Shown here: piece after piece, positions 18,394-55,732 of the stretch
Numbering within the stretch: position 1 is the first letter of the stretch
Layout of the letters: the number at the start of each line of letters is the position of its first letter
Assembly: GCA_022690815.1 (NCBI GenBank)
Contig: JALCZJ010000009.1
Coordinates: 1-64,000 of the forward strand
Direction of reading: 5' to 3'
DNA: 64,000 nt
Source: Ferrimicrobium sp.
Lineage (GTDB): Bacteria; Actinomycetota; Acidimicrobiia; Acidimicrobiales; Acidimicrobiaceae
The notes under the pieces: generated by a model
Told to the model about the DNA's origin: nothing
Seen by the model: only the letters and a program-made list of their open reading frames with translations
Database searches by the model: none
Made by a program: the position numbers and the translations under genes

Positions 18394-18403
18394 GGAGACG
18401 ATT

Positions 18404-18441
18404 ATATACGTAGTTTTATTCGTGTATTGCACTACGGTCAA
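18404..18441 (-). promoter_or_regulatory. Probable dabBA promoter with overlapping inverted repeat
   Basis: On the minus strand TTGACC (18441-18436) is followed after 17 bases by TAAAAC (18418-18413), a plausible sigma-70 promoter just before dabB. An imperfect inverted repeat, ATATACG (18404-18410) and CGTGTAT (18421-18427), overlaps the -10 box. The divergent winged-helix gene next door makes this a candidate operator. Confidence 0.35.
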
Positions 18442-18483
18442 TAATTGTGTCGTCTGGAGGTTGATGTCTACTACTCTCCATCC

Positions 18484-18783
18484 GTGGAACCAAACACAAC
18501 CCCCCAACCGCGACAGTGGACGTTTCTCTCAAACCACGGCCATGTCCTGCTCGTGATCGCACAGGACCCCGAGATACGCGGCCGTGATATCGCACAAAAG
18601 GTTGGCATTACCGAACGCGCGACGCAAACGATCATCGCCGATCTTGTGCAGGCAGGATACGTCGAACGAGAGCGTCGCGGCCGAAGAAACGTCTACCGTG
18701 TCAACCTCTCACTACCCCTGCGACATCACAACGAAGCGAGCCACACGGTCGGCGAACTCCTCAAGCTTCTCGGGGGATCATAA
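18484..18783 (+). CDS. Winged helix-turn-helix regulator, divergent from dabBA
   Basis: The product of about 100 residues is a single winged-helix DNA-binding domain. It reads QWTFLSNHGHVLLVIAQDPE, then IRGRDIAQKVGITERATQTI as the helix-turn-helix, LVQAGYVERERRGRRNVYRV as the wing, and PLRH...VGELLKLL as a closing helix. Small MarR-like proteins of this pattern are common in actinobacteria. There is no effector domain. The start is uncertain: GTG 18484 keeps the whole domain, while TTG 18445 would add 13 residues; neither has a strong ribosome site. Its divergent position makes it the natural candidate regulator of dabBA, which is inference. Confidence 0.65.
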   Translation: MEPNTTPQPRQWTFLSNHGHVLLVIAQDPEIRGRDIAQKVGITERATQTIIADLVQAGYVERERRGRRNVYRVNLSLPLRHHNEASHTVGELLKLLGGS

Positions 18784-33200: not shown

Positions 33201-33798
33201 GCAACGAATAGGTGTAAAAGACATCGATGGCGAGCTGGTGCTGACGGGCCAACGCGACGAAATCTCGTACAAACGAGAGATTCCCCGAGATGACATGTGC
33301 GCGATAGATGATGACCGCTACTCGACCGCGGGCGTCCGGGGTGGTCTCGCTGATCAGGCGACCGAAGGCCGCCAACGTCTCGACCGGTGCAAACCCGTAT
33401 CCGGTCCTGGTGACGGTATCAGAGAGAAAGCAAACGAAGTTAGTGAGATTGGGAACGCCACCCTCAACGAGATAGCGAAACCCCTCTTCCCAGATGCCGG
33501 CCGTCACGGTAGCCGCCGCCATCATCTCGGCATCGAACCCATTGTCGCCCGGATAGCTGACCAACGGGATGCCTCGACTCCGACATGCATCGGCCAAGGG
33601 CCCGAACCAACGGCTCGCGCCCACCCCACCAAGCAGTCGTATCACCACGATACGGGCCTCATCGAGAAGGTCATCGATCCCCGTAACCGTATCGATCTGG
33701 CGGACCGTCAGCCCGAAGTCGTCAGGCAACTCCTCCCAGGCGCTCCGGAGCGCCAAAACCTCGGTGTCCGCATTGGTCAGATAGACAAACTTGCTCAC
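30256..33798 (-). CDS. cobN: Cobaltochelatase large subunit CobN
   Basis: CobN binds hydrogenobyrinic acid a,c-diamide and inserts cobalt, using ATP hydrolysed by its partner subunits. The 1180-residue protein matches the usual CobN length. Landmarks are the N-terminal IVVIRLLGGVGASRWF with IPLVSYPGD, the central AVVLSAYPTKRSRLGNAVGL and DTPQSL, HLGKHGTAEWLPGKSVGMGP, and the C-terminal HGYKGAFEMAATVDYLFGYD. The LGKHGT.EWLPGK block is shared with BchH. It starts with GTG 44 bases after cobQ and overlaps the chelatase motor gene, so cobQ-cobN-motor form one operon. Confidence 0.93.
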   Translation of the reverse strand: MSKFVYLTNADTEVLALRSAWEELPDDFGLTVRQIDTVTGIDDLLDEARIVVIRLLGGVGASRWFGPLADACRSRGIPLVSYPGDNGFDAEMMAAATVTAGIWEEGFRYLVEGGVPNLTNFVCFLSDTVTRTGYGFAPVETLAAFGRLISETTPDARGRVAVIIYRAHVISGNLSFVRDFVALARQHQLAIDVFYTYSLRVGDDEPSVIDLIAETAPDVVVATVLAGGHADALAWETGQLASLGVPVLQALIATTPRATWSESQAGLRPIDVAMNVAMPEFDGRIITVPIAFKELIDDDEDFGATISAYRLDPERSQRLIGYVHRLLRLRRKANADKRIAVVLSAYPTKRSRLGNAVGLDTPQSLMVLAERMRREGYVIEGLPPDANELMARLGDLIDYEHPSVRASQGIGLDVEHYCAWFATLPEELRVAVMQHWGPPPGEIYTRDGSLIFPALQFGNLTVAIQPPRGYGENPIAIYHSPELPPTHHYLAFYHWLTTIADVDALCHLGKHGTAEWLPGKSVGMGPTCYPDTVLGELPVIYPFVINDPGEGTQAKRRTHAVLIGHLVPPMTRAESYGELARLEMLMDEHQRISALDPSKLPAIRAEIWELIEAARLHEDMGVTDAPSVDQDLFDDFLLHVDGYLCELKDSLIRGGLHILGSPPMGQALIDMLVAITRVPQLDAPALRPLLAGGHEHLTRLEVDEDDERATELLWAYADHEFAIEAFDDPTLCRSLGLAYPLEDPLHAVLAWIGSVLVPNLLATTGEVDALIGALAGRAVPSGPSGAPTRGMAHALPTGRNFYSVDPRSLPTQISFFTGRRLGDAMIERFRDEHQGRYPRNIGIVLWGTAAMRTGGDDVSTVLALLGIQPVWDPISNRIVTLELIPLSELGRPRVDVTCRISGFFRDAFPSAIDLLDEAFELVAKETGEGSMNPVAEAGAVERIFGPSPRSYGSGILPLLESRSWQDEKDLSEVYLTWSGFSYSRSGYGVPNRGALEARLGALEVAYKVQDNREHDIFDSDDYLQEHGGMIAAARALGAQEVRGYFGDSANPSQPKVRSIEEEAARVVRSRVLNPKWLDAMMTHGYKGAFEMAATVDYLFGYDATAHVAKDWMYDAVHDGYVSDATRREFLTAVNPTALVSICERLLEASERGMWRASPERVQDLRRIIVGVEGELEDGRG

Positions 33799-33842
33799 AC
33801 GCTTCCTTCCAGCCAGCTATTGGATCCAGGCTAGTAGCCAGG

Positions 33843-35426
33843 TCAGTCGAGACCGAGGAGATGAGCGACGTCGAGATGGCTGTCAAGAACATCGGCGAGG
33901 TTGTCCAGGCTATCGTCGATAAACTGGTCAAAACACAGCGTACTGACAAAGGTTCGCTGCCGTGCGTGAGCCAACCTCGCAAAGAACGAACGACGAAACT
34001 CATCCTGATCGAAGAGACCATGGACACTCGTTCCAAAGACCTGGCCACCACGACACGCACCCTCGGCAACCAACGGCGAACGTTGAGCAACGTCCCCATC
34101 GACCCCACCGAGCATGAACAACGGCCCCTCGGTCGTCTTGACGACTCCGTGATGAATCTGGTATCCACGGACGCCGGCATCGCCAAAGCCAGGCGATGAC
34201 CCAGTGACATTGGCCAACGCCTTGTCAGCACCAAAGACAACGCCGCCACCCAGGAGACCGAGCCCCGCGACGCGACCAACGCCTGACTCTACCTCATCGT
34301 CGATCTCCTCGACCAGCATCTGATAACCACCACAAATGCCGAGCAACCAGACGCCAACGTCGGTAAGCTCCACGAGACGCCTGGCGATGCCAGAATGGCG
34401 TAGCCAGTTCAGGGCGACCACGGTGGCCTTTGTGCCCGGCAAGATTACCAGATCAGCATCCATGAGTTCATCTGGTCGAGTAACAAACCGTAGGTCGATT
34501 GCTGGTTCAACAATGAGCGGGTCAAAGTCCGTGTAGTTCGCAAGGTAGGGCAACTCCACCACACGCACCTGAATCCTGTCATAGTCTTGTCCACGCATCT
34601 GGGACACGGAGGCGTAGCTCGTCGCGGTTGCCCCAAGATTGAGGGCGTCTTCGCCGGGCAGGAAGCCATCGATCAGCGGGACATTGCCAAACCACTCGGT
34701 GCCAAGACGTCGCGTCAACTCCTCGATGCCTCTGTCGAGGATCTTGCCATCACCTCGGACACGATTAAGAATAAAACCGCGAAAAAGCGGGCGATACTCC
34801 TCGCTGACGAGCAGATAGTGACCATAAATCGATGCGAAGACACCACCCGGCTCCAGATCCCCAACGAGAACGGTCCCCATGTTGAGGGCCTTAGCCAATC
34901 GAAGGTTTGCAAGGTCGCCGGGGAGCAGGTTAATCTCGCCAGCCGAACCGGCCCCCTCGGCGATGATGATCTGATAGCGCTCGGCTAACTCCTCGAAGGC
35001 ACCAACAACGGTGTCAAGCAGTCCGCGTTTGGCGGCGATCCACCCACCACTCGCGATCTCACCGATGGGCCGTCCCTTGACGATGAGCTGGGATCGCTCA
35101 CGCCCGGTTGGCTTGATCAACACGGGGTTCATCGCAACCTCCACCCGAACCCCACCAGCGCGAGCCTGCACGGCTTGGGCTCTCGCAACCTCCCCACCAT
35201 CGACCGCGACGGCGGAGTTGAGCGCCATATTCTGGCCCTTGAAGGGTGCGGCCGCGATGCCACGTTGATAGCACCAGCGCATCAAGCCAGTGACGATCAT
35301 AGACTTGCCTACATTGGATCCAGTACCGGCGATTAAGACTCGCTTGGCAAGCGATGTGTTCACCGACAAGACCGGGGTCGAACCCGCGAGCATGGCTGGC
35401 ACATCCGGTGTCGACAGGTCGGGCAA
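33843..35426 (-). CDS. cobQ: Cobyric acid synthase CobQ
   Basis: CobQ amidates the b, d, e and g side chains of adenosylcobyrinic acid diamide, using glutamine and ATP. The 527-residue protein has the ATP loop GTGSNVGKS (34-42), the family segment GQNMALNSAVAVDGGEVARA with AMNPVLIKPTG, and the glutamine amidotransferase domain with nucleophile Cys in GICGGYQML (near 363) and His in GTSVHGLFDQDEF (near 469). The start is TTG at 35426; an ATG at 35393 is a possible alternative that keeps the whole domain. It heads the cobQ-cobN-chelatase operon. Confidence 0.92.
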   Translation of the reverse strand: MPDLSTPDVPAMLAGSTPVLSVNTSLAKRVLIAGTGSNVGKSMIVTGLMRWCYQRGIAAAPFKGQNMALNSAVAVDGGEVARAQAVQARAGGVRVEVAMNPVLIKPTGRERSQLIVKGRPIGEIASGGWIAAKRGLLDTVVGAFEELAERYQIIIAEGAGSAGEINLLPGDLANLRLAKALNMGTVLVGDLEPGGVFASIYGHYLLVSEEYRPLFRGFILNRVRGDGKILDRGIEELTRRLGTEWFGNVPLIDGFLPGEDALNLGATATSYASVSQMRGQDYDRIQVRVVELPYLANYTDFDPLIVEPAIDLRFVTRPDELMDADLVILPGTKATVVALNWLRHSGIARRLVELTDVGVWLLGICGGYQMLVEEIDDEVESGVGRVAGLGLLGGGVVFGADKALANVTGSSPGFGDAGVRGYQIHHGVVKTTEGPLFMLGGVDGDVAQRSPLVAEGACRGGQVFGTSVHGLFDQDEFRRSFFARLAHARQRTFVSTLCFDQFIDDSLDNLADVLDSHLDVAHLLGLD

Positions 35427-35601: not shown

Positions 35602-37575
35602 TCAGTGGATGAAGATGGCAAGCACGGCGATGACGAAGAGGATCAACAGATAACTCAGGTAGGCGTTGAGCTGCCCACTCTGCAACGGTGCCATCCATCG
35701 TGCGAGCTGCTTGACACCCCGACGCAACAACTCGATGAGACCGGCTCCAAAGATCGGCGCCTCGCGTGCCTCGTAGGTCACCCGATCCAACACATATCCC
35801 TGATCGCGATAGCTCCGCTGCGTCTGGGTAATCGGTCGATAGAGGAACGAATACACCGTTCGTAACGGATTCGAGAAGCTAAATCCAGTGGTTGCGCTCG
35901 CCGCAAGGTCTACAGGCTCACCGCCACTCCACGGCGCAACGCGGCGAGGAGCAAAGCGCCTCACAATCAAGAAGATCGGCACCAGTGCAAACAACACCCC
36001 AACGATAACGAACTTCACCGGAGAGATGAAGGCAAAACTCGACGAGAGTGGCACGATCAGGAGTCCGTCGATCAACGCCCTTGCGCTTTGGGGGTCCGGC
36101 CAGTCAGCCTTGCGCATGAACGGCTCAAAGAAGACCAAACTCAGCGCCATCGCAAGGTTCGCTACTCCCAGTACCAGCACCGTGAGCCGACTTGCAAGCG
36201 CAACCGGTCGACCTCGGCGGCGACCTCCAAGGAGTCCGACCCCATAGAGTTTGACGAAGGTGGCGAGCGAGAGGGCGGCCGAGAGGGCGAGACCGGCTCC
36301 AACCAAAATTAAGGTGGTCCGCCCAGCGAGTGAGGTGATCTCAAAGTCATGAAAGAGCGCCTCGAACAGTAACCACTCAGTGACAAATCCCATCGCTGGC
36401 GGCATGGCCGAAAGGCTCATGGATGCGATCAGAGCGCCGATACCGACCGTAGCCGGATACTCGTGGGCAACCCCGGTCTGCTCGATCCGATAGCTCGCAT
36501 CACGATCAGCCTTCACCTTGGCAGCAAGAAAGAGGGCGGCCTTGGCCAGGCTATGGCCCATGAGATGCAAGATGCCGATGATCCAACACAAGCCTGCCAG
36601 CTCCACCTGGCCTCCTGACTGAAAGATGAGAGCAGCACCCAGTGCCGCGACAGCGATACCCGCGTTTTCGGCACCTGACAGCGCGAGCAGCCGACGCCAA
36701 TCATGTTGTTGGAACGCGTACAAAACAGCCACGATCGCCGATAACATCCCGGCCGTGGCGACCACGATCCCAACGAAGAGCGTCGACGGTCCGTGGGCAG
36801 GTAGCCACTGTAACAACGCGCGGCCTAAAGCAAAATAGGCGGTGTTCAAAACCAGCGACGACAGGATCGCCGCTGTCGGGCCGTCTGCCACCCCATAGGC
36901 ATCCGCGAACCATGAGTACAACGGAATGATACCGAGCTTGGCCCCAAAGCCCACGAGAAACAGGATGCCAATCAGGCCAGAGATCACCTCAGGACGTATG
37001 GCCCAGTCGGCGCGAAAGCTCCCAAAACTGAGGTGAGGGCCGAGCAGCCCTACCCCCACAATCAAGGCCACGCTCCCCACCTCCAAGAGAGCAATCATCG
37101 ACAGCGTTGACTTGGAGCCCACACCATCAGGTCGGTTAGAGACAAGCATCACGGCGCCACCAAGGCTCATGAGTTCCCAACCGAAAATCATGGACGCACC
37201 GTTGTTGAAGCCACTGAGCCCAAGGACCCCGAGAATAGCGAGCGCAGCACCGAGCGACCACCACGTCCCAACCTCGCGACAGACCCAGACCGCAAGCAAT
37301 ACGGCCAACCACGCCGGCACGAGTATCCACAAGGCCCCAGGAGCCATCCGCCACGTCACCAACTGATTGCCAACGACGAAGATGGAAACCTTGCTTGTGC
37401 CCGCCGGCAACCCGACGATGTCGGCAATGAAGCCGACGAGCGTTGCCACGATGAGCCCGGCTCGTGCCAGCCGTGTCATCACTTTGAGCCGGCGTAGGAA
37501 GTTCGCGGCGATGACCAGAACATAGAGTGTGGCCGCGATGCCCATCCCTAGGGCTGCAAGCTGGCCTTGGCTCAT
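35602..37575 (-). CDS. Ehr complex, HyfB/NuoL-M-like membrane subunit
   Basis: The 657-residue protein has about fifteen hydrophobic helices and belongs to the Proton_antipo_M family, HyfB/HycC branch. Typical parts are GFGAKLGIIPLYSWFADAYG with GPTAAILSSLVLNTAYFALG (the conserved Lys and the channel helix), LLALSGAENAGIAVAALGAA, and LMGHSLAKAALFLAA. The C-terminal QSGQLNAYLSYLLILF is characteristic of the HycC/HyfB branch rather than NuoL. It should conduct protons or sodium ions. It is the last gene of the operon and overlaps the upstream gene by four bases (ATGA). Confidence 0.82.
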   Translation of the reverse strand: MSQGQLAALGMGIAATLYVLVIAANFLRRLKVMTRLARAGLIVATLVGFIADIVGLPAGTSKVSIFVVGNQLVTWRMAPGALWILVPAWLAVLLAVWVCREVGTWWSLGAALAILGVLGLSGFNNGASMIFGWELMSLGGAVMLVSNRPDGVGSKSTLSMIALLEVGSVALIVGVGLLGPHLSFGSFRADWAIRPEVISGLIGILFLVGFGAKLGIIPLYSWFADAYGVADGPTAAILSSLVLNTAYFALGRALLQWLPAHGPSTLFVGIVVATAGMLSAIVAVLYAFQQHDWRRLLALSGAENAGIAVAALGAALIFQSGGQVELAGLCWIIGILHLMGHSLAKAALFLAAKVKADRDASYRIEQTGVAHEYPATVGIGALIASMSLSAMPPAMGFVTEWLLFEALFHDFEITSLAGRTTLILVGAGLALSAALSLATFVKLYGVGLLGGRRRGRPVALASRLTVLVLGVANLAMALSLVFFEPFMRKADWPDPQSARALIDGLLIVPLSSSFAFISPVKFVIVGVLFALVPIFLIVRRFAPRRVAPWSGGEPVDLAASATTGFSFSNPLRTVYSFLYRPITQTQRSYRDQGYVLDRVTYEAREAPIFGAGLIELLRRGVKQLARWMAPLQSGQLNAYLSYLLILFVIAVLAIFIH

Positions 37576-38321
37576 CGCTCACGCCCCATGAGCCCCAAAA
37601 GGGCATCAATGATCACCGCTGGATGTGGCGGACACCCCGGCACCCAGAGGTCCACCGGTAGGAGCCCGTGGAGTCCTTGTCGCGCGTGATCACCACCACC
37701 ATTGGTCCCGCCAGAGATCGCGCACACACCGGTCGCCACCACGTAGTTTGGCTTTGGCATCGCCTCATATGTCGCTAACAGCGGCTCGTACATCGGGTTG
37801 GTCACCGGCCCGGTCACAAGCAGTACGTCGGCAAAACGAGGTGACGGCGTAAAGAAGATACCAAAGCGATGGAGGTTGTAATAGATATTATCTAGCGCCC
37901 CGATCTCAGACTCGCAGCCATTACAGGAACCAGCGTCAACATGACGGACAAAGAGGCTCTTGCGTAACCGACGGGCATCGCCTTTGGGATGTAACCTGGG
38001 TTGACCCGGCTCGACGCCGCCACGACGCCGCAAGTCGTCTCGGTTCTCTACTGCTCGGGCCAAGCGTGGTGGCGCAACCAATACACTCGATGGGCACACT
38101 TCGATGCAGAGGTTACATCCGACGCAGGCACCCTGATCGAGTGTGAGTTGCTGATCGACAGTAATGGCTGAGGTGGGACAACTCTTGGCGCACTGCTCGC
38201 AACCTGGGGGACAAGACTCGACTGTCGGTTCAGGCAGCCCTGGTATCGTCGTCAGGGCTGCAATCGGCCAAGGTGCTGTCTTGATTCCACCTTTGAGTCC
38301 TCGATAGGTCCATAGCGGCAT
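37572..38321 (-). CDS. Ehr complex, ferredoxin domain fused to NuoB/HyfI-like subunit
   Basis: The 249-residue protein has two parts. Residues 37-76 hold two [4Fe-4S] motifs (Cys 37, 41, 44, 48 in CPPGCEQCAKSCP; Cys 66, 69, 72, 76 in CVGCNLCIEVCP). The first has an extra residue between its first two cysteines. Residues 125-249 are NuoB-like, with Cys 133 and 136 in GSCNGCESEI, VTGPVTNPM, Cys 200 in GVCAISGG and Cys 230 in GCPPHPAVIIDALL, the four ligands of the proximal cluster. In Hyf/Hyc complexes the ferredoxin and the small subunit are separate proteins (HyfH and HyfI). The fused form keeps the electron path in one chain. It lies between the large subunit and the HyfB-like gene in a tightly packed operon. 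Confidence 0.85.
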   Translation of the reverse strand: MPLWTYRGLKGGIKTAPWPIAALTTIPGLPEPTVESCPPGCEQCAKSCPTSAITVDQQLTLDQGACVGCNLCIEVCPSSVLVAPPRLARAVENRDDLRRRGGVEPGQPRLHPKGDARRLRKSLFVRHVDAGSCNGCESEIGALDNIYYNLHRFGIFFTPSPRFADVLLVTGPVTNPMYEPLLATYEAMPKPNYVVATGVCAISGGTNGGGDHARQGLHGLLPVDLWVPGCPPHPAVIIDALLGLMGRER

Positions 38322-38333
38322 CAGTCCAACCTC

Positions 38334-39827
38334 CTAACGATCGTTTCCTGCCAACGAAAGACCAAAGCTGGCCTCGTTGATGGCGTAATCCATCATGTTG
38401 GTTCCATCCACGGTGTAGGGGAAGACTCGCCAATTCGAGAAGGAGGGCTCCTTTATTTTGACCCTCGTGAGGCGACCGTCTTCGAGATAGACGGCGTAGA
38501 TCAACGTACCTCGAGTCCCCTCCACCCATCCGAGGCCCTCGGCCTCACCAGTGAGGCTTGCGGCCTCAAACGGTACCTGAATCGGACCATGGTCAAGACG
38601 TTTGAGGATCTGTTGAACAATGGCAAACGATGCAAACAACTCCTCCTCTCGGATGAGCGCTCGAGCACGCGCGTCACCGGCACTTGCGTCAGGCACAACG
38701 AACTGGTAGCGATCGTAACCACCATAGGGATGATCACGTCGTAGATCACGATCGAGTCCGCTAGCGCGCTCGATGGGGCCGGTGGCCCCTTGGGCGAGCG
38801 CTACGTGGGTCTCAAGGACCCCGGTGGTCTCGATCCGATCCAGGTAACTTCGCGTTCCGTTGAGCGTACCGAGATAACCCTGGACTCGCTCTTCGAGATC
38901 CATAAGCATTGGTTCAAGAGCACTGACATCGAGATCCTTCCGGAGCCCCCCTGGGGTGATCAAACCACGCAGAAACCTGCTGTCGGTTAACGAGGCGTTG
39001 GTCTGTTTGGCCAGCTCCTCGAGATAATGACCTTCGGCTTCCCCGACCTTTAAGGTGGTAAGTTTTGCGAGGAGACCGAAGTAGTGAAGGTGGTTATAGA
39101 TGCGTTCTAGCTCCGCCAACAACACCCGCAGCTGTTGGGCCCGCTCAGGCACCTCTATACCAACAGCGCGTTCACATGCCAACGCGAAGGCAAAGGCGTG
39201 GGCGACACTATCGACCCCCGAGACCCGCTCGGCAAGGATCGACCCCATCGTCGGTGTCGCCCCCTCAAAGCGCTTCTCCATGCCGCGATACTTATAGAAA
39301 AACTGCGTCTCAAGATGGACAATCCCCTCACCGGCGTAACTGAAGGCAAACCTTGCAGACTCAACAACATCGGCACGCACCGGGCCAAAGCGCAACAGCT
39401 GAAGGTCCGGACTCTCGACGATGGTCGGTGCCGACGGTGCTATTGGGACCTGTTGGTCTTGTGAAGGAGCGCCCCTCGCTTTGGCATGGTGGAAGATCAG
39501 ACTCCGCCGATCAAGGGCTCCAGCAAAGTCAATACCATAGAGATCGCGTACCTCACGTTCGTAAGAGCCAGCCAGTGCAACAATCGGCGACAGCGAAGGC
39601 ACCTCGGTCCCGGGGCTAACCCGGCAGCGCCAGAGACGAAACGGCTCACCAATGGCCGCACTCGCCAGATAACTGAGCTCGATGTCGTCCCCAACCTGCC
39701 TCGCCCAGATCCCTTGGAGCCGATTGTAGGTCCGTGGCGGCGCACTTGGATCAGCCGCAAGCTGGGCAAGGATGTCTCCAAGCTGTCCCGGATCGTCAAC
39801 AATATACTCTTCACAGGGTCGCATCAT
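38334..39827 (-). CDS. Ehr complex, HyfG-like (NuoC-NuoD) large subunit without NiFe cysteines
   Basis: Starting at ATG 39827, which overlaps the stop of the upstream gene and follows GGAGG, the protein has 497 residues. A NuoC-like domain (about 1-140, ending EREVRDLYGIDF) is followed by a NuoD/HycE-like domain (HLETQFFYKYRGMEKRFEG..., ERIYNHLHYFGLL, DHPYGGYDRYQF). In NiFe hydrogenases two CxxC pairs hold the metal. Here the first site reads ERVSGVDSVAHA (about 200) and the C-terminus reads NEASFGLSLAGNDR, with no cysteine pair at either place. Hydrogen chemistry is therefore excluded. The protein fits the energy-converting-hydrogenase-related (Ehr) class, whose electron partner is unknown. 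Confidence 0.85.
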   Translation of the reverse strand: MMRPCEEYIVDDPGQLGDILAQLAADPSAPPRTYNRLQGIWARQVGDDIELSYLASAAIGEPFRLWRCRVSPGTEVPSLSPIVALAGSYEREVRDLYGIDFAGALDRRSLIFHHAKARGAPSQDQQVPIAPSAPTIVESPDLQLLRFGPVRADVVESARFAFSYAGEGIVHLETQFFYKYRGMEKRFEGATPTMGSILAERVSGVDSVAHAFAFALACERAVGIEVPERAQQLRVLLAELERIYNHLHYFGLLAKLTTLKVGEAEGHYLEELAKQTNASLTDSRFLRGLITPGGLRKDLDVSALEPMLMDLEERVQGYLGTLNGTRSYLDRIETTGVLETHVALAQGATGPIERASGLDRDLRRDHPYGGYDRYQFVVPDASAGDARARALIREEELFASFAIVQQILKRLDHGPIQVPFEAASLTGEAEGLGWVEGTRGTLIYAVYLEDGRLTRVKIKEPSFSNWRVFPYTVDGTNMMDYAINEASFGLSLAGNDR

Positions 39828-41293
39828 CGACCTCCCACAACTGCTGCGATATGGGTAAAGAAAATCCAAAGTGGATGCGGCCACCAGATACCGAGACCCA
39901 ACACGACGACGAGGGCGACCACCATCGGCGCCACCGACGTGATCGGGATGGGCCCCTTGGGCTTGTGCTTGGTGGCGGGTGGGCGTGCTCCAGTAAAGTA
40001 CATTCGACGGAAATGAGTCATAAAGCCGACGAAGATCACAATCAGGGCAACAGCCATGACACCAACAGCCCAGGCGTTCGGTCCGGCCAGGCCGCCGCGC
40101 ATAATCGTCAACTCGCTCAAAAACAGCGCAAATGGCGGCGCACCGGTGATTGCAAAGGCCCCAGCGAGCCAGGTCGCGCCCATCACCGGGAACCAATCGG
40201 CCACCCGACGGATATCGGCGATCTGGCGACTCCCAAATGCTTCGATCGCGTTGCCAGCACCGAAGAACACCGCCGACTTGGTCAGCGAATGGTTCAGCAT
40301 CTGATAGAGAGCACCGACGGTACCGAGGACCCCACCGAATCCGAATCCGAGCGCGATAATCCCCATGTGTTCGACACTCGAGTAAGCTGCTAGCCGCTTG
40401 ATACCTCGTTGGCGAGTGATAAAGAGGGCGGCCACCACCAGACTCGCGACCCCGAGGATCACAAGTCCTGTGCCAGCATAAACGCCCATTGTCGTCGTGC
40501 GCATGATGCCAAGGAAACGAACGATACCGAGCATCGCACAGTTGAGCACTCCTCCAGAGAGCATCGCCGACACCGGTGTTGGACCCTCGCTATGGGCATC
40601 GGGCAGCCAGGTATGCATCGGGGCAAGCCCAGCCTTCGTACCATAACCAACCATGACCAACAGGAAGGCCATCAGCAACAGTGATGGATCCGCATGTGGG
40701 GCAAACTTGGTAAAACTCTGCCAGGTCATCGGGTACTGCGGCCCCTCGGTGAACGTACCGGCAAAGTAGAACAACACCGTCCCGATGAGCGCCAGCGAGA
40801 GACCGACGGCGACGACAACCAGATACTTCCACGCCGCCTCTGTCGCGCGTCGATGCGGTTCCAACCCTACGAGTACGGCACTGACCAGCGTGGTCAAATC
40901 GATCGCGATCCAATAGAGCCCAGGGTTGTTTTGAATCGGCGACAGTAGCATAACGAGGGCGAAGCAGGCAAAGAGGGCATAGAAGCGGCGCAGCGAACGT
41001 GTTGAGCGGTTTTGTTCCCGAAGATAACCCCGCGCATAGACCGTGGCAAAGAGGTACACCAGACAGACACACACCAGTACCCAGACTGCGAATGGATCGA
41101 TAATCAGCAACGAGTCGACGCCGACGACACCATGGCTTGGGACAAGAAACAGGATCCAGAAGATGAGCCCCAGATCGACAATCGAGGCGATCTGGTTCGC
41201 CCACTCGGCCAGCACAATCCGTGGCGCGCCGAGTGAGACAAGCGCTGCGGCTGCCGTCACCACCAGCATGATAAAGATAAGGGTCAAAATCAT
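39824..41293 (-). CDS. Ehr complex, HyfF/NuoM-N-like membrane subunit
   Basis: The ATG at 41293 overlaps the stop of the preceding gene; the open frame extends further upstream, but there it is only the shadow of that gene. The 489-residue protein has about fourteen helices. Landmarks are GYGTKAGLAPMHTWLPDAHS with EGPTPVSAMLSGGVLNCAML (the conserved Lys and His of Proton_antipo_M), RLAAYSSVEHMGIIALGFGF and LNHSLTKSAVFFGAGN. These suit HyfF/HyfD-like subunits. It is the second ion-translocating antiporter-like subunit of the complex. Confidence 0.82.
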   Translation of the reverse strand: MILTLIFIMLVVTAAAALVSLGAPRIVLAEWANQIASIVDLGLIFWILFLVPSHGVVGVDSLLIIDPFAVWVLVCVCLVYLFATVYARGYLREQNRSTRSLRRFYALFACFALVMLLSPIQNNPGLYWIAIDLTTLVSAVLVGLEPHRRATEAAWKYLVVVAVGLSLALIGTVLFYFAGTFTEGPQYPMTWQSFTKFAPHADPSLLLMAFLLVMVGYGTKAGLAPMHTWLPDAHSEGPTPVSAMLSGGVLNCAMLGIVRFLGIMRTTTMGVYAGTGLVILGVASLVVAALFITRQRGIKRLAAYSSVEHMGIIALGFGFGGVLGTVGALYQMLNHSLTKSAVFFGAGNAIEAFGSRQIADIRRVADWFPVMGATWLAGAFAITGAPPFALFLSELTIMRGGLAGPNAWAVGVMAVALIVIFVGFMTHFRRMYFTGARPPATKHKPKGPIPITSVAPMVVALVVVLGLGIWWPHPLWIFFTHIAAVVGGR

Positions 41294-41970
41294 CCGGTAA
41301 GCTCCCGCAACGCTCGCACGTCCGTTCCACCGGTCCGAGCGCGCAAGGATGGCGCCAACACCGCATAGGTCGCGACGATGATCAACAGATCGAACAGAAT
41401 CACAATCTCTAACAAAAACGGCATACCCGGTACGAGGATCTGTGAACCAGCGAGGATACCGTTCTCGATCATCAACAGCCCCAACAGGCTCGCCAAAGCC
41501 TCGGTGCGAAGGCACAACATCAAAAACGCGATGAAGTCGACGGCGAGCAACACCGTCAGCGCCAACACCGCGACGGCAGGGAGCGAAACAAGCTGGTGGG
41601 CAACCTCTTCCGCGATCACGAAAGCAAAGATCACCAACACGCCACCAACCACTACTGCCGAGCTTGAGCGCAAAATCGGTGCAGACTCGCGGCCAACTCC
41701 CGTCCGATCGAGAATGCGCACGACAAAGAAGGGAATCAAGATGCCGCGCACAACGATCGTGAGCGCTGCGATCCCATAGGAAAGCGGGAAATGTCCCCAG
41801 ATGGCGACGATCACTGAGATCAAACCGATGACCCACGACTGCAGGGCAAAGGCATAGACATGGTTACGGACCCAATGCGACCCGAGAATCACAAAACTCA
41901 GGATCAACACGACGAACAGCGCCAAACTCAATACCGCCACCACGATTGGATGTTGTGTAATCATCGACAT
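41290..41970 (-). CDS. Ehr complex, HyfE-like membrane subunit
   Basis: From ATG 41970, with GAGG upstream, the protein has 226 residues and about seven helices. The C-terminal half, FLMLCLRTEALASLLGLLMI followed by ENGILAGSQILVPGMPFLLE, contains the E-N-G motif of NuoK-like proteins, and the whole resembles HyfE, a NuoK relative with extra helices. The end, ILFDLLIIVATYAVL, is also typical of HyfE. NuoK-like glutamates take part in ion transfer. Its stop overlaps the start of the HyfF-like gene. Confidence 0.8.
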   Translation of the reverse strand: MSMITQHPIVVAVLSLALFVVLILSFVILGSHWVRNHVYAFALQSWVIGLISVIVAIWGHFPLSYGIAALTIVVRGILIPFFVVRILDRTGVGRESAPILRSSSAVVVGGVLVIFAFVIAEEVAHQLVSLPAVAVLALTVLLAVDFIAFLMLCLRTEALASLLGLLMIENGILAGSQILVPGMPFLLEIVILFDLLIIVATYAVLAPSLRARTGGTDVRALRELTG

Positions 41971-41980
41971 GGAATCAACC

Positions 41981-42922
41981 TCACAGAACCTGTCGCGCCA
42001 CGACTGCGAGCACCGCCAGAATGAGTGCGAGCGCCAGGGGCTCTTGATACCGGAAGAAACGGAGCCGCGACTGTGCCGTCTCGACGACAACCATGATGCA
42101 CGCGACGATCAGCCACTTGCCCAAAAGCACGATTACGCTCATGGCAACACTCGGAACCGATCCAGTAGACGAGAGTCCCCACGGAACGGCAAGCACATTA
42201 AGGAAGATGGTGTACAGGATGGCTTGCTTCATCCACGACGACCAGCGGATCAAACCGAGCATCGGCCCCGAGTACTCCAGGATCCTGGCCTCGCCAATCA
42301 TGTAGACCTCGTAGTGGATTGACGAGTGGATCGGAAGTCGCTCGGTCTCCACCGTGAGGAGAATCAAGAAGGCAGCGACGAAGAACAGATGAGCCGGACT
42401 GAGATAGGTTGCAAGACTGCCAACGAGCAGATGATTGACAACGAACGGAAGCATCGACTCCGCCAGCAAGGTAATCCCAATGAACACCATGATGAGGCTG
42501 GGCTCTGCCAAGATAGCAAGGATCGACTCCCGAGAACTCCCCACCCCTCCGTATGGATGGCCGGTGTCAAGCCCAGCCAGACTCAGAAAAAAGGCTGCCA
42601 ACGTCAAGATAAGCCCGCCGCCGAGGATGTCCCCGATGTTCGACAATGGTAAGGGAAAGTTCGTCAACACAGGGATCAACATAGGAACGATCATCATGGC
42701 GACGAAGGCAACGACCGGGGTGAGCCAAAACAGGAACGATGCCGAGGTCGGCACAAGCTGCTCTTTATGGAACAACTTCCAAAGGTCTCGATACGGCTGC
42801 AGGATAGAGGGCCCCCGATTCCCTTGCACGCGCTCCTCAGCGAAGACAATGAACCCGTGAATCAACGGGGACAACAGGACTATGGTTAGCACTTGGCAGA
42901 CCTGCAACACCACATCGCTCAC
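41981..42922 (-). CDS. Ehr complex, HyfC/NuoH-like membrane subunit
   Basis: This first gene of the operon encodes a 313-residue protein with about eight helices. It has the NuoH/HycD landmarks: FAEERVQGNRGPSILQPYRD with LWKLFHKE on the cytoplasmic side, ALAGLDTG-like SLAGLDTGHPYGGVGSSRES, and LTVETERLPIHSSIHYEVYM. These loops contact the NuoB and NuoD-like subunits and the redox site. It shares the family's role as the connection between the hydrophilic and membrane arms. The next gene starts ten bases after its stop. Confidence 0.85.
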   Translation of the reverse strand: MSDVVLQVCQVLTIVLLSPLIHGFIVFAEERVQGNRGPSILQPYRDLWKLFHKEQLVPTSASFLFWLTPVVAFVAMMIVPMLIPVLTNFPLPLSNIGDILGGGLILTLAAFFLSLAGLDTGHPYGGVGSSRESILAILAEPSLIMVFIGITLLAESMLPFVVNHLLVGSLATYLSPAHLFFVAAFLILLTVETERLPIHSSIHYEVYMIGEARILEYSGPMLGLIRWSSWMKQAILYTIFLNVLAVPWGLSSTGSVPSVAMSVIVLLGKWLIVACIMVVVETAQSRLRFFRYQEPLALALILAVLAVVARQVL

Positions 42923-42995
42923 AGCGCTGTCACTCCTCCGTCTCGACAGTCCTTGCCGGACAACCCGACAGGACCCTGTTCCGCAGAGGAGTCAT

Positions 42996-43087
42996 TAGCC
43001 ACAAGGGCAGTGCAAGGTGGACTCCATCACCCCTTGTCAAAATCCTATCTTGGACCTTCCTTGGCTGTCAACTTAATAGCCACAAGG
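42996..43087. repeat. Direct repeat TAGCCACAAGG flanking the promoter
   Basis: TAGCCACAAGG occurs at 42996-43006 and 43077-43087, 81 bases apart. One copy lies just upstream of the -35 box and the other downstream of the likely transcription start. This arrangement would suit a repressor that loops, but that is inference. Confidence 0.4.
43042..43071 (-). promoter_or_regulatory. Ehr operon promoter (sigma-70 type)
   Basis: On the minus strand TTGACA (43071-43066), an 18-base spacer and TAGGAT (43047-43042) form a near-consensus promoter about 120 bases before the HyfC-like start. Confidence 0.6.
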
Positions 43088-45125: not shown

Positions 45126-45575
45126 ATAGCAACAGTTTTTCCCTGCGCTGGGCCTCTGGCAAGGTCATGCCCGAGAACGACGTAGCCAAGCTGAAGATGC
45201 CCTCCAGGGTCGTCAGCACACCACGATCTACCCCTGGTAGCCCATCTCAACGTCTTAAGAGCCCGATTCTGCCTTCGATAGGTCCCCTCTGACACCACGA
45301 CAGTTCCCCCCGAGCGCAGGACCGCCTCTCTTCGCTTGTTTTAGGTCAGTTGATGTCAACTCCCATGGGGTTCTCCGATAGTCTGGGGGGGATGACATCT
45401 GAGCTGTACTCAGACTGAAACCTGAACCCAAATAGACAGGGGATGGGAGGATATAGCCTCGTCAACCCCGAGATCATAAGAGTCGATTCGTCTGCACCGA
45501 GTGGGAGTGATATGATGTCACTGCTGTGTCGGAATCTTGCCAGTCAAGAGGTGTTGGGGCTGCTATGGTCGTGTT
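45126..45575. other. Upstream region of ada-alkA
   Basis: No gene was recognised in this 450-base stretch. It holds the inverted repeat listed separately, and TATGAT at 45511-45516 is a possible -10 box without a clear -35 partner. Confidence 0.35.
45348..45361. promoter_or_regulatory. Perfect palindrome AGTTGATGTCAACT
   Basis: AGTTGA and TCAACT are separated by two bases about 215 bases before the ada-alkA gene. It could be an operator, but it does not resemble the known Ada box. Confidence 0.25.
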
Positions 45576-47081
45576 ATGCACGAGGATTTTGATTGGTGCT
45601 TTGGGGTTATCCAGTCCAAGGATGCCCGCTTTGACGGCTGGTTTGTAACTGCGGTAATCACCACTGGGATCTACTGTCGGCCGAGCTGTCCAGCTCGATC
45701 GCCTTTGGCTCGGAACTTAGCATTTTATCCGACTGCCGCAGCAGCACAGCAGGCGGGGTTCCGCGCCTGCAAGCGCTGTCGACCCGATGCGTCACCTGGC
45801 TCACCCGAATGGGATACTCGTCAGGATCTGGTCGCCAGGGCAATGCGGTTGATCGCAGACGGCGTGGTCGATCGCGAGGGCGTGGCCGGGCTGGCGTCCC
45901 GCGTCGGCTACAGCGCCCGCCAGTTGGAACGGCACCTCATGGCTGAGGTCGGTGCTGGGCCGCTTGCCCTCGCCCGGGCCAACAGAGCTCAGACTGCGCG
46001 GCTTCTCATCGAGACGACCACCATGACCTATTCCGATGTCGCGTTCGCAGCTGGATTCTCGAGCGTCCGCCAATTCAACGACACCGTGCGCTCGGTCTTT
46101 GCTTGCACGCCAACCGAATTGCGTGTGCGAGCCACCGGTCGTGGCACGCCGAGACCGACGATTGATTCCACGACTCCCGGCAGTTTGACCTTCCGCCTTT
46201 CGTTCCGTTCGCCGTTGGCGCCCGAGAGCCTCTTTGGTCACCTGGCAGCTACCGGTGTACCTGGATATGAGGAGGTCCGTGCTGGTGCCTATCGACGTAC
46301 GCTCCGGCTACCCAACGCCAACGGGATCGTCTCGCTTCGGCCACTCAGTGACCACGTGTCATGCCGGCTGGTCCTTCAGGACCTGCGTGATGTCCCCACT
46401 GCTATAGCAAGGTGCCGCCGGCTCCTCGACCTAGACTCCGATCCCGAGGCGTTCACTGCTGCCCTGTCCAACGATCCGGCGCTTTCCCGCGTGGTGGCTC
46501 ATTCGCCAGGCCGTCGAATTCCGCGCACCGTAGACGGAGCAGAGATGGCAGTTCGGGTTGTACTCGGTCAACAGGTATCAACCAAGGCAGCGCGTACCCA
46601 TGCTTCCCGCCTAGTAGCACAACACGGTACCCCGATCGATGATCCGGACGGTGGGTTGAGTCGAGTATTCCCGTCACCTCAGGCATTACAGAATCTTGAT
46701 CCAGAGGCACTGGCGATGCCGAGGGCGCGACGGACAGCACTAGTGGCCTTGGTCGGCGCGCTGGCCGATGGTTCGGTTGAGCTTGATGCTGGCGCAGACA
46801 GTAGGCGTGCCCGTCACCACCTAGCGGAACTGCCTGGTATCGGCCCGTGGTCGGTTGAGCTCATCGCTATGCGAGCGCTTGGCGATCCAGATGCGTTTCC
46901 GGCTACCGATATGGGCGTGGTGAAGGGTGCTGCGGCGCTTGACCTGCCTGTGAGTCCTGCGGCACTGGTGGCTCACAGTCGACGGTGGCAGCCATGGCGG
47001 TCCTATGCTGTGCAATATTTATGGGCCACCCAGGATCATCCGATCAACCGTTGGCCACAGGGAGAGGCAACATGCAAGTGA
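45576..47081 (+). CDS. Ada-AlkA fusion: methyl-DNA-responsive regulator and 3-methyladenine glycosylase
   Basis: From ATG 45576 the protein has 501 residues. The N-terminal Ada domain has the zinc site that accepts methyl groups from phosphotriesters (Cys 34, 38, 65, 68 in YCRPSCPARSP and ACKRCRP). An AraC-type DNA-binding domain follows (about 95-190, GYSARQLERHL and DVAFAAGFSSVRQFNDTVR). The C-terminal AlkA domain (about 205-495) has the helix-hairpin-helix LPGIGPWSVELIAMRALGDP and the catalytic Asp near 445 in FPATDMGV. It would sense methylation, activate its own operon and cut out alkylated bases. This Ada-AlkA layout is known in actinobacteria. The next gene, ogt, overlaps it. Confidence 0.88.
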   Translation: MHEDFDWCFGVIQSKDARFDGWFVTAVITTGIYCRPSCPARSPLARNLAFYPTAAAAQQAGFRACKRCRPDASPGSPEWDTRQDLVARAMRLIADGVVDREGVAGLASRVGYSARQLERHLMAEVGAGPLALARANRAQTARLLIETTTMTYSDVAFAAGFSSVRQFNDTVRSVFACTPTELRVRATGRGTPRPTIDSTTPGSLTFRLSFRSPLAPESLFGHLAATGVPGYEEVRAGAYRRTLRLPNANGIVSLRPLSDHVSCRLVLQDLRDVPTAIARCRRLLDLDSDPEAFTAALSNDPALSRVVAHSPGRRIPRTVDGAEMAVRVVLGQQVSTKAARTHASRLVAQHGTPIDDPDGGLSRVFPSPQALQNLDPEALAMPRARRTALVALVGALADGSVELDAGADSRRARHHLAELPGIGPWSVELIAMRALGDPDAFPATDMGVVKGAAALDLPVSPAALVAHSRRWQPWRSYAVQYLWATQDHPINRWPQGEATCK

Positions 47082-52458: not shown

Positions 52459-52653
52459 CACCAACTCCCCTCGTGATAGACATAACCCCTTACCAATCCT
52501 TCCAACCTAGCGGTGGCGTTGCCTCCAGCTCGGCACCGACGAGCAAGTGGCGTCCGATCGCGACGCTCCACTAGGCTGCCGAGTGGTGATGGAGTTCACC
52601 TACGGTTCTTTCACTAATGACTCCTACGGCGAACTGCGAGAGGACGGAGTTAC

Positions 52654-54264
52654 TTGTCCAAGGCGTACCTGAGAGAACTCATCAAACGAGAACCGAACAC
52701 GACCTGGACAACAAGCCAGCTCGTTGGGCACACGCTCACTGATCTCAGCCCCAAAGGTGAACCCAAGAGCCTCCTAGGCCCTCGCGATCAACTGGGAGAT
52801 CCGATCCCCCCAGGGGTCCTTGTCGATCTGGCGCTTGACAGGCTCTTTGGGGCCATCACCCATGGACTCGAAGCCTTCGATCTGTATCCGTTGTTCACAA
52901 CACCGCTCATCTCTTGCGAGGCAATCCGCTTTCGCCAGGCTATCGCAGGCGACCTCCTCGACCCTGGTGGTCGCGCCCCGATTCTCCTCCTCCTTGAGGG
53001 TATCGAACGGGTCGAACTCTTGCTCAAAGCGATGCAGGGGGGTCGGCAGTCATTGAACAAGCAGCGCTGGCTCCTTGATGCCATCATCGTCTATACCGAG
53101 ACCATGCAGGCCGTTGTGGCACAACTCGATACCGTCACATGGCAATCCGCAGGTCTCAAAGGTCTCGCAGCATCACTTCGCGACGCCGTAAGCACCGAAC
53201 ACTTTGGTGAACTCTCAAACGATGCCCATGCGGTCAGCGCGGCGCTCGATGCCATCAGCTATCGGCTCATCCTAGAAGATAGTGCCATCACCGTGGAGCC
53301 GAGCGATTCAGATGACACAAGGTATCGCGATCACCTCCTGGAGTTGTTTTCTCGTTTTGGCGACTCCAGTGGTTCTGAACCACCGACGCAGCTACGACGA
53401 CGCTCGAGCACCCACATCGACGACCAGATCCTTGTCATCGTCTCACACCTGTTCCCCGAGGAATTCTCGAAGCTCGCGACCTTCCCAGGTGCCCATGAGC
53501 GCTTTCTCATCCCTTGGATTCCGCGTATAGAACGTGAACTCGCCTTCTATCTCGCCTGGATCGAGGAGCTCCTAGCGCTACAAGCACAAGGTCTTCCTTG
53601 GACGCTTCCGAATGTGAACAGCACACCAGGGCTCCAACGAGCCGATGAGGTATACGATCTGGCGCTCGCTCATGACCTCGTGAGCTCCAACTCAACACCA
53701 GTAACAAACTCCTTTGAGCTCACCGGCGACGAGACCGTCATCGTTGTGACCGGTCCGAACGATGGTGGAAAGACTACCTATGCCCGTTCAATCGGTCAAC
53801 TTTATTGCATTGGTGCCCTTGGGCTTCCGGTCGGAGCGCGACGCGCTACCATCACGCGCGCCCCAATGGTTGCCACCGTCTTCTCAGAGCAAGAGGCGAC
53901 CGATCGCCTTCAAGGACGCCTTGAAAGCGAAATCCAGCGCGTCCGCTCCTTCTTCGAGCTAGCAAAGGAACAGTCCTTGCTCATCGCTAATGAGGTCTTT
54001 AGCTCCACGAGCGTCGACGATGCGGCCCAGCTTGGACGGCTCCTCATCGATCGGTGCAACGAGCGCAACCTTCGATGCATCTTCGTCACGTTCGTCGACG
54101 AACTCGCCCGTCCTGAGTCCGGCGTCGTTTCACTGGTAGCCATGGTCGACGAGGATACGCACCTACCCAGCCACCGCCTCCAACGGCGACCCCCGCAAGG
54201 AAGGGCCCTCGCGCTTGAGCTCGCCTTACGTTATGGACTCATCAAGGCAACAGATAATGATTGA
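52654..54264 (+). CDS. MutS-like ATPase 1 (no mismatch-recognition domain)
   Basis: The 536-residue protein starts with TTG behind GGAG. Residues about 1-350 are helical, resembling the lever/clamp part of MutS. The C-terminal ATPase domain has Walker A VTGPNDGGKTTYARSIGQLY (about 365-384), Walker B LLIANEVFSSTSVDDAA (about 442-458) and a FVTFVDELA strand. The usual MutS signature DELGRGTS reads NEVFSSTS, with Asn for the first Asp. Domains I and II, which read mismatches, are absent. It is followed, with an eight-base overlap, by a second protein of the same kind, so the two probably form a heterodimer. Its DNA substrate and pathway are unknown. Confidence 0.75.
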   Translation: MSKAYLRELIKREPNTTWTTSQLVGHTLTDLSPKGEPKSLLGPRDQLGDPIPPGVLVDLALDRLFGAITHGLEAFDLYPLFTTPLISCEAIRFRQAIAGDLLDPGGRAPILLLLEGIERVELLLKAMQGGRQSLNKQRWLLDAIIVYTETMQAVVAQLDTVTWQSAGLKGLAASLRDAVSTEHFGELSNDAHAVSAALDAISYRLILEDSAITVEPSDSDDTRYRDHLLELFSRFGDSSGSEPPTQLRRRSSTHIDDQILVIVSHLFPEEFSKLATFPGAHERFLIPWIPRIERELAFYLAWIEELLALQAQGLPWTLPNVNSTPGLQRADEVYDLALAHDLVSSNSTPVTNSFELTGDETVIVVTGPNDGGKTTYARSIGQLYCIGALGLPVGARRATITRAPMVATVFSEQEATDRLQGRLESEIQRVRSFFELAKEQSLLIANEVFSSTSVDDAAQLGRLLIDRCNERNLRCIFVTFVDELARPESGVVSLVAMVDEDTHLPSHRLQRRPPQGRALALELALRYGLIKATDND

Positions 54265-55732
54265 GGTCAATCTTCTCACACCACCTGACACCCAACACAG
54301 CGGTGCTGCCTTCACTAACGATGCGTCACTCACCGACCTCGGGGTGGGAGCACTCATTGAGGTCATGGCCGACGGTGACCAGCATCTCGGAGCGGTTGCC
54401 CAGCACTACTTCATCAACGCACCATCTGACCCAGCTGTGATTCGGTGGCGCCAAGAGGTGTTTCGTGACGCGCTCGGACATCTTGAGTTCATTCGCGACC
54501 TTGAAACGATCGCACGCCATGGAGCTGAGCTACAACGCCAATCCGCCTATGCCCTGAAGCCCCAACCCCCCATCTCGACACTGCTTCGCTCCCGAGAACT
54601 CTTGACCCTACTCATCGCTGATCTCCGGTCGCTCGCACAGAGGGTCGCCAAGCCAGACGCCACCGTCACATCGGCCGGCCTCAGACTCCTCGTCGAAGCC
54701 ATCTCCACCAACTTCACACCGGACTATCTGGACAGTCTGGAGATCACGCTCCAGGAGTTGCGCTTCGAACACGGCCTCATGGCAAGGGCAAACCTGACTG
54801 CCGGCAACCTCACAAGTCACCAGCCTCTCCTTGAGGGCCCATTTGAGGGTCGTGGTTGGCGAGATCGGCTGCGCCTTGTTAGAGGCGATCGTAACCGCAT
54901 CGAGATCGTCCCGCGTGATCAGGCTGGGAGCGAGACACTGCGCGAGCTGAGAAATGAGGCGCTTGTTGATATCGGCGGCACAACCGCGAAAGGCCTCGGC
55001 GTCGTCATCGACTTCTTCGTCCGACTAGGACGCGAGCTTGCCTGGCTCGTTGGCGCTCTGAATCTCTACCATCGGCTCCAGTCGCTCGATCTCCCACTCT
55101 GCTTCCCAGAGCCCACCATGAACGAGGGTCGGATCACATTCTCGACCCTGGTGGAGCCAACGCTGAGCTTGCGCACAGGCCAACGACCGGTCGCTAATGA
55201 TCTTGATGCCAGCACACGCTCGGCCATCGTAATCAGTGGAGCCAACTCGGGAGGCAAGACCACCTGGCTCACCAGCGTCGCGCTGGCCACACTGATGATG
55301 CAAGTTGGTCTCTTCGTCTGTGCAGACGCGTTTTGCTCCGACGTCCGCACAGCCCTTAGCACCTTCTTCCCTCGAGACGAAGATCGCGCGCTCGAACGAG
55401 GACGCCTCGACGACGAACTGCTTCGCCTCAGTCAAGCCGTGAACGCCTTGTCCGAGGGAGGTCTCTTCTTACTCAACGAGCCACTGAGCTCTACCAACGA
55501 GGTGGAGGCCTGCGCGATCGCGACTGCCCTTATCGATGACCTCAGGCGACGCAACATCGCTACGATTGTCGTCACCCACTACCCTACCCTCGCACGATCG
55601 TTAGCCACCGACGGCACGAGCCTGCGACCAGCGGTTGTTAACAACGGTCAACGTACCTACTGCATCGAATTGGCCGCACCACCAGCCGACTCCTCGGCCA
55701 TGGACATCTACGAACGCCTCGGTGGTTGGTGA
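54257..55732 (+). CDS. MutS-like ATPase 2, coupled to ATPase 1
   Basis: The ATG at 54257 overlaps the stop of the first gene. The 491-residue protein again has a helical N-terminal part (about 1-300) and a MutS-type ATPase: Walker A VISGANSGGKTTWLTSVALA (about 325-344), Walker B GGLFLLNEPLSSTNEVEA (about 400-417) and TIVVTHYPTLARSLA. As in its partner, the signature is NEPLSSTN instead of DELGRGT. Both lack the mismatch-binding domain and the Smr nuclease domain of MutS2. The shared departure from the standard motif shows that the pair evolved together. Confidence 0.75.
   Translation: MIEVNLLTPPDTQHSGAAFTNDASLTDLGVGALIEVMADGDQHLGAVAQHYFINAPSDPAVIRWRQEVFRDALGHLEFIRDLETIARHGAELQRQSAYALKPQPPISTLLRSRELLTLLIADLRSLAQRVAKPDATVTSAGLRLLVEAISTNFTPDYLDSLEITLQELRFEHGLMARANLTAGNLTSHQPLLEGPFEGRGWRDRLRLVRGDRNRIEIVPRDQAGSETLRELRNEALVDIGGTTAKGLGVVIDFFVRLGRELAWLVGALNLYHRLQSLDLPLCFPEPTMNEGRITFSTLVEPTLSLRTGQRPVANDLDASTRSAIVISGANSGGKTTWLTSVALATLMMQVGLFVCADAFCSDVRTALSTFFPRDEDRALERGRLDDELLRLSQAVNALSEGGLFLLNEPLSSTNEVEACAIATALIDDLRRRNIATIVVTHYPTLARSLATDGTSLRPAVVNNGQRTYCIELAAPPADSSAMDIYERLGGW

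Follow-up and report, generated by a model that had tools for sequence, protein, structure and literature searches.

What are two MutS-family ATPases for when their genes are coupled in one operon-like unit? The question is raised by the window, by which we mean the whole stretch of DNA analyzed here, i.e., 64,000 nucleotides of contig JALCZJ010000009.1 of Ferrimicrobium sp. (Actinomycetota). The genes and their leader comprise the following features.

52576-52633, + strand: fluoride riboswitch aptamer (RF01734, crcB motif), 34.3 bits for a cut-off of 34
52639-52650, + strand: purine-rich stretch GAGAGGACGGAG, just 5' of the TTG start, read from the sequence
52654-54264, + strand: subunit A (gene 1), TTG start, 536 aa, MutS-family ATPase; Walker A GPNDGGKT, Walker B NEVFSSTS, switch loop VTF (His lost)
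54257-55732, + strand: subunit B (gene 2), ATG start, 491 aa, MutS-family ATPase; Walker A GANSGGKT, Walker B NEPLSSTN, switch loop VTH (His kept)

The two genes and their leader

The two genes overlap by 8 nt in the window, and both proteins have a MutS_V domain at their C-terminal end (Pfam; 40.7 bits in A and 45.9 bits in B for a cut-off of 30.2). No other Pfam domain passes its cut-off in A or B, domain I, domain II, and Smr being all absent. This agrees with a sequence-only reading of the locus, which had described two overlapping genes for MutS-type ATPases without these domains. A and B are the sole MutS_V proteins found in the genome. A single-subunit structure prediction of B (AlphaFold, 3-row alignment) gave a poor model, with a pLDDT of 56.6. 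Foldseek matched this model to MutS and MutS2, but since the query TM-scores are 0.40 or less, these matches add little.

The riboswitch aptamer ends 20 nt before the start codon of A. It was the sole match in a search of 1 kb around the start (E = 1.5e-7), and was recovered again when the whole window and the whole genome were searched. In the scan of the whole window, only two RF01734 elements were found, this one and another on the opposite strand (42979-43040), which is described below. The element in the leader of the pair barely exceeds the cut-off and has a degenerate second hairpin. In an alignment of 16 riboswitches, including that of the window, the two helices have 98% of their cells paired and 33 two-sided changes, a result reached by none of 500 shuffles, and sliding the partner strand abolishes the pairing.

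Between the aptamer and the start codon, the purine-rich stretch is, by its sequence, likely the ribosome-binding site, and the GGAGTT within it repeats the sequence of the aptamer loop. An alternative pairing of this stretch with the 3' strand of the aptamer is possible in the window, yet it is matched by 142 of 300 shuffles, and the expression platform of the window is at most putative. In L049 and L051, two relatives from the family of Ferrimicrobium, the 3' strand of the aptamer pairs across the ribosome-binding site. In five Chloroflexota leaders, it pairs with a downstream strand that precedes a T-run, at a strength that no shuffle out of 300 reaches, and these leaders are predicted terminator switches.

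Pairing and ATPase motifs across relatives

Homologs were gathered from the order of Ferrimicrobium, from 396 genomes of Actinomycetota, and from 301 genomes of Chloroflexota, which resulted in 53 complete loci. In all 53, which cover both phyla, A and B occur together and in this order, with an overlap of exactly 4 nt in 40 of them. The seeming singletons among the collected loci turned out to be contig-edge cases or members of other families. For the sequence-only reading, relatives that mostly stand alone would have spoken against a paired system; instead, they are essentially always paired, and this in two phyla. The phylogeny and the neighborhoods, which it had put forward as a check, gave conserved pairing and two mutually separate clades in the tree of the ATPase domain (support of 100/99 for A and 100/100 for B), both placed beside a clade of single-gene proteins of 551-594 aa and apart from MutS1 and MutS2. 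In a mirror-tree analysis, the distances among A and among B proteins are correlated (r = 0.95), and none of 2000 permutations gave a value as high.

The Lys of Walker A and the catalytic Glu are invariant in the 53 A and 53 B proteins. The Asp of Walker B is replaced by Asn in every one of them, so the NE(V/P)(F/L)SST(S/N) motif noted in the two proteins of the window extends, in its NE, to all the homologs, none of which has the canonical DE. Equally, the Ser-Thr-Phe of the MutS signature has become [KR]-[LF]-[DE] in A and B, which departs from the canonical ST. The two subunits differ at the switch loop, where all 53 B proteins have His and all 53 A proteins have Phe. The single-gene sister family has the same NE and altered signature as the pair, and has kept the His of the switch loop. 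Hence, NE is a trait of the subfamily, and since this family shows no riboswitches, fluoride alone does not account for NE or for the change of the signature. The peculiarity of the pair is its A/B asymmetry, i.e., the change of the switch-loop His to Phe in A. The sister family includes L116-L123 (Chloroflexota), which have no fluoride riboswitch nearby, and is possibly the homodimeric form ancestral to the pair.

An obligate heterodimer had been proposed from the motif change that the two proteins share. This argument holds only in part: NE is not specific to the pair, as it is found in the single-gene family, whereas the pairing itself favors the proposal. The strict pairing, the separate clades, the correlated distances, and the His of B facing the Phe of A all point to an obligate and asymmetric heterodimer, and these sequence comparisons make it very probable that A and B form one. 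They could alternatively be two homodimers that are merely co-expressed, and the existence of the single-gene sister family makes homodimers of the same fold plausible. However, A and B are never apart in complete loci, their distances mirror each other, and their difference at the switch loop is fixed and complementary, which makes this alternative very unlikely.

Genomic company of the pair

Within the order of Ferrimicrobium, the riboswitch is found upstream of the pair, on the same strand and within about 1 kb, in 20 of the 22 pair-bearing genomes with upstream sequence (the exceptions are G009 and G050), sometimes with one gene in between. Using a riboswitch model built here, we identified an upstream element at E ≤ 0.01 in 26 of the 53 pairs, and at least one match at E < 1 in 36 of the 53 loci. 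Among the distant pairs, directly upstream riboswitches escape detection in about half. Where none was detected, several pairs have an enolase-type gene no more than three genes away (L001, where it was checked with Pfam, L045, L137, and L141). Nine control loci, eight from the single-gene family and one with another MutS-like protein, had no riboswitch at the Rfam cut-off.

The second riboswitch of the window belongs to the same regulon as the pair but to a separate operon. It is associated with the following cluster.

42979-43040, - strand: second fluoride riboswitch, 42.4 bits, upstream of the hydrogenase-4-like cluster
35602-42922, - strand: hydrogenase-4-like (energy-converting-hydrogenase-related) membrane complex; Pfam Proton_antipo_M, Oxidored_q6, Complex1_49kDa/30kDa, NADHdh

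From this arrangement, the cluster is likely under the control of the second riboswitch. It includes a HyfE-like protein, and its large-subunit homolog (38334-40196, - strand) has no nickel-binding cysteine motifs. This complex is the only known fluoride-type company of the pair in the window. In the order of Ferrimicrobium, it is present in all 14 pair-bearing genomes that are at least 90% complete. We considered it as an obligate partner of the pair and rejected this idea, since 21 of the 33 pair-bearing Chloroflexota lack the complex; common control by fluoride is a better explanation of the co-occurrence.

The company of the pair is richer on plasmids. A tblastn search identified the family on 109 plasmid records, of which 46 had most of the query covered at one place. 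We read six of these loci (two of Klebsiella pneumoniae, and one each of Burkholderia multivorans, Rhodococcus sp., Alicyclobacillus sp., and Mycobacterium branderi), and all six, from five genera, carry the A-B pair. It is accompanied by varying sets of genes: crcB, a channel of the voltage-gated chloride channel family (CLC-type), DUF190, enolase, and phosphoglycerate mutase, as well as inorganic pyrophosphatase, universal stress proteins, a cation/proton antiporter, and hydrogenase-4-like genes. The six loci contain 23 fluoride riboswitches in total. One of them lies directly upstream of the pair on the Burkholderia, Mycobacterium, and Alicyclobacillus plasmids, and on those of Klebsiella, a riboswitch heads a run of genes in the order antiporter, stress protein, A, and B. 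According to a review from 2024, the genes commonly associated with the riboswitch include those for Na+/H+ antiporters, pyrophosphatase, enolase, and formate hydrogen lyase (PMC11139923).

Other genes were observed around the pair or elsewhere in the window. In 16 loci of Actinomycetota and Chloroflexota (e.g., L043:10940-12160 and L126:13459-14664), the pair has an MFS transporter nearby, of some 405 aa, which adjoins it in seven; this recurrent transporter may be a further gene of the fluoride regulon. A dynamin-family GTPase adjoins the pair in two loci, between the riboswitch and A in one of Actinomycetota (L094:5282-7093) and on the opposite strand in one of Burkholderia (L150:13500-15617). 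Full-length MutS1-like proteins of 789-823 aa are encoded in L058, L061, and L069, all from one family of Actinomycetota, a phylum usually devoid of MutS. In the window, a CobN-type chelatase, a ChlI/VWA-type protein, and a CobB/CobQ-like amidotransferase (28415-35426, - strand) lie beside the hydrogenase-4-like cluster, and in a 514-aa protein (45537-47081, + strand), Ada-like regions are combined with a 3-methyladenine glycosylase. Finally, a 785-aa protein without NCBIfam match touches a NuoL-like protein of 540 aa (14528-18507, - strand), an arrangement that resembles the DabA/DabB bicarbonate transporter.

Proposed function and comparison with known systems

The position of the pair directly behind a fluoride-sensing RNA switch suggests that it is part of the response to fluoride stress, and the genomic contexts described above make its membership in the fluoride-stress regulon nearly certain. 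Our main reading, to which we assign a probability of about 85%, is that of a fluoride-induced operon in which the riboswitch would turn on an obligate heterodimer of the MutS family within this regulon. Fluoride binding would hold the 3' strand of the aptamer in a pseudoknot and so free the start region or, in the Chloroflexota variant, prevent the formation of the terminator, and A and B would be produced as fluoride rises. The two proteins would join through their ATPase domains, like MutS and MutS2, in a clamp whose two ATP sites would be composite. Since both sites lack the Mg2+-binding Asp of Walker B and the Ser/Thr of the signature, and A also lacks the switch His, ATP is expected to be turned over slowly and unequally by the two subunits; the complex is thus probably an asymmetric heterodimer of slow turnover. 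In E. coli MutS, the D693N change reportedly weakens the binding of Mg2+. This mutant protein, whose change in Walker B is that of the pair, has been crystallized (3k0s), and substitutions of the Walker residues 693-696 of MutS abolish ATPase activity according to a review (PMC3848065).

What the clamp would act on is a more tentative matter. It might, in the manner of MutS2, remodel nucleic-acid or ribosome complexes that stall when fluoride inhibits Mg2+-dependent enzymes, a suggestion that we make with low confidence; MutS2 of B. subtilis splits stalled ribosomes (PMC10897456). A more specific version seems to us decidedly doubtful: a heterodimeric clamp dedicated to fluoride, with less Mg2+-dependent ATP sites, would keep working when Mg-fluoride jams ordinary ATPases and would rescue stalled nucleic-acid or ribosome complexes. 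The presence of the same Walker B change in single-gene relatives without riboswitches counts against such a tolerance of Mg-fluoride.

Two other jobs within the fluoride response deserve consideration. If fluoride starves replication, by build-up of pyrophosphate and low energy, A and B could serve in DNA repair or in the control of recombination by binding DNA structures, e.g., branched junctions, as MutS2 types lacking domains I and II can. The MutS fold with its clamp-type helical region is in line with this, as are the binding of junctions by MutS2 proteins without domains I/II (PMC12292046) and the suggestion of Weinberg et al. in 2010 that crcB-related stress can damage DNA (PMC2864571). 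However, A and B have neither Smr nor any other nuclease domain, repair genes are not among the recurrent neighbors of the pair, the plasmid islands carry exporters and metabolic enzymes instead, and MutS2 also acts on ribosomes, such that the target cannot be deduced from the fold. We regard this job as possible, with the odds clearly against it. An unlikely job is that of an activase, in which the binding of ATP would pull fluoride-trapped inhibitors (Mg-F-phosphate) from enzymes such as enolase or pyrophosphatase, or would aid the assembly of the membrane complex. The neighbors of the pair are indeed fluoride-inhibited enzymes, the hydrogenase-4-like complex co-occurs with it, and NCBIfam names KamC, a MutS-family protein, as an enzyme reactivase. 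Yet no enzyme is a constant partner of the pair, the membrane complex is missing from many pair-bearing Chloroflexota (see above), and the match to KamC is an unspecific one that scores well under the cut-off.

The fluoride context as a whole would fall if the riboswitch match were spurious or decayed and the job of the pair lay elsewhere, e.g., in the control of recombination. The score just above the cut-off, an expression platform that cannot be told from shuffles in the window, and the many distant pairs without riboswitch would fit this view. Nevertheless, the same element precedes the pair in nearly all testable relatives of the order, it covaries and has a low E-value in the 1-kb search, and the plasmid relatives lie within fluoride islands; hence, we consider a spurious match extremely unlikely. 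Recombination control, which the sequence-only reading had raised as a possible job, found no support. The riboswitch and the plasmid islands assign the pair to the regulon of fluoride stress. A role in phage defense was also rejected: PADLOC gave generic ATPase similarity only, and none of the proteins was found in viral contigs.

The pair differs from the named families. Like MutS2 (TIGR01069), a dimeric clamp, its proteins have an ATPase domain and a helical region and lack domains I/II, but they are without Smr, have NE and not DE, and depart from the STF signature, and MutS2 is usually encoded by a single gene. The scores with the MutS2 model are 62.9 bits (A) and 74.8 bits (B) for a cut-off of 400, and the pair forms separate clades. 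It shares the ATPase fold with MutS1 (TIGR01070) and is likewise in a separate clade, far below the cut-off and without the mismatch-recognition domains. KamC (NF052383), the reactivase ATPase of lysine 5,6-aminomutase, has a MutS-type ATPase domain comparable in length to that of A and B, and is the best NCBIfam match of B (80.5 bits; 41.0 bits in A; cut-off of 300). This identity was rejected since every MutS-like protein tested scores similarly; thus neither of the best NCBIfam matches, KamC and MutS2, provides a name that applies. No protein in the 396 Actinomycetota genomes passes the KamC cut-off, and lysine 5,6-aminomutase had no match in 37 pair-bearing genomes, the control genomes being equally silent.

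We found no description in the open literature of the two-subunit subfamily, its shared motif changes, or its function, nor a paper on a MutS with a fluoride riboswitch under that name, the term used in 2010 being crcB. The statement of the sequence-only reading that lone MutS-like ATPases are on record, and that no function is defined for a tandem pair, was incomplete in this respect, as the association of crcB with mutS has been known since 2010: Weinberg et al. reported 5' leaders with the crcB motif for mutS (DNA repair), for genes of K+ or Cl- transport, and for those of formate hydrogen lyase (PMC2864571). In Enterobacter cloacae FRM, a six-gene operon controlled by a riboswitch (ppaC, uspA, eno, gpmA, crcB, and orf5249) confers resistance to fluoride (PMC5533749); the ppaC, uspA, eno, gpmA, and crcB set also surrounds the pair on the Klebsiella plasmids, but unlike for the pair loci, that paper does not mention a MutS-like gene. 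The mutS genes behind fluoride riboswitches have thus been on record for years without explanation. Those of the group of the pair are distinct from DNA-repair MutS: they constitute a subfamily of their own, in which pairing is strict and the motif changes are fixed. This subfamily occurs in two phyla or more and on plasmids alongside other fluoride-resistance genes, and for its proteins, the database name "DNA mismatch repair protein MutS" is to be corrected. A vague link between fluoride and mutS becomes testable through two defined genes. They have in common with the mutS genes of 2010 the fluoride riboswitch in the 5' leader and the company of formate-hydrogenlyase-like and ion-transport genes; where the earlier list has DNA repair (mutS) only, the pairing of two genes, their motif changes, and their separation from MutS1 and MutS2 come from the present analysis.
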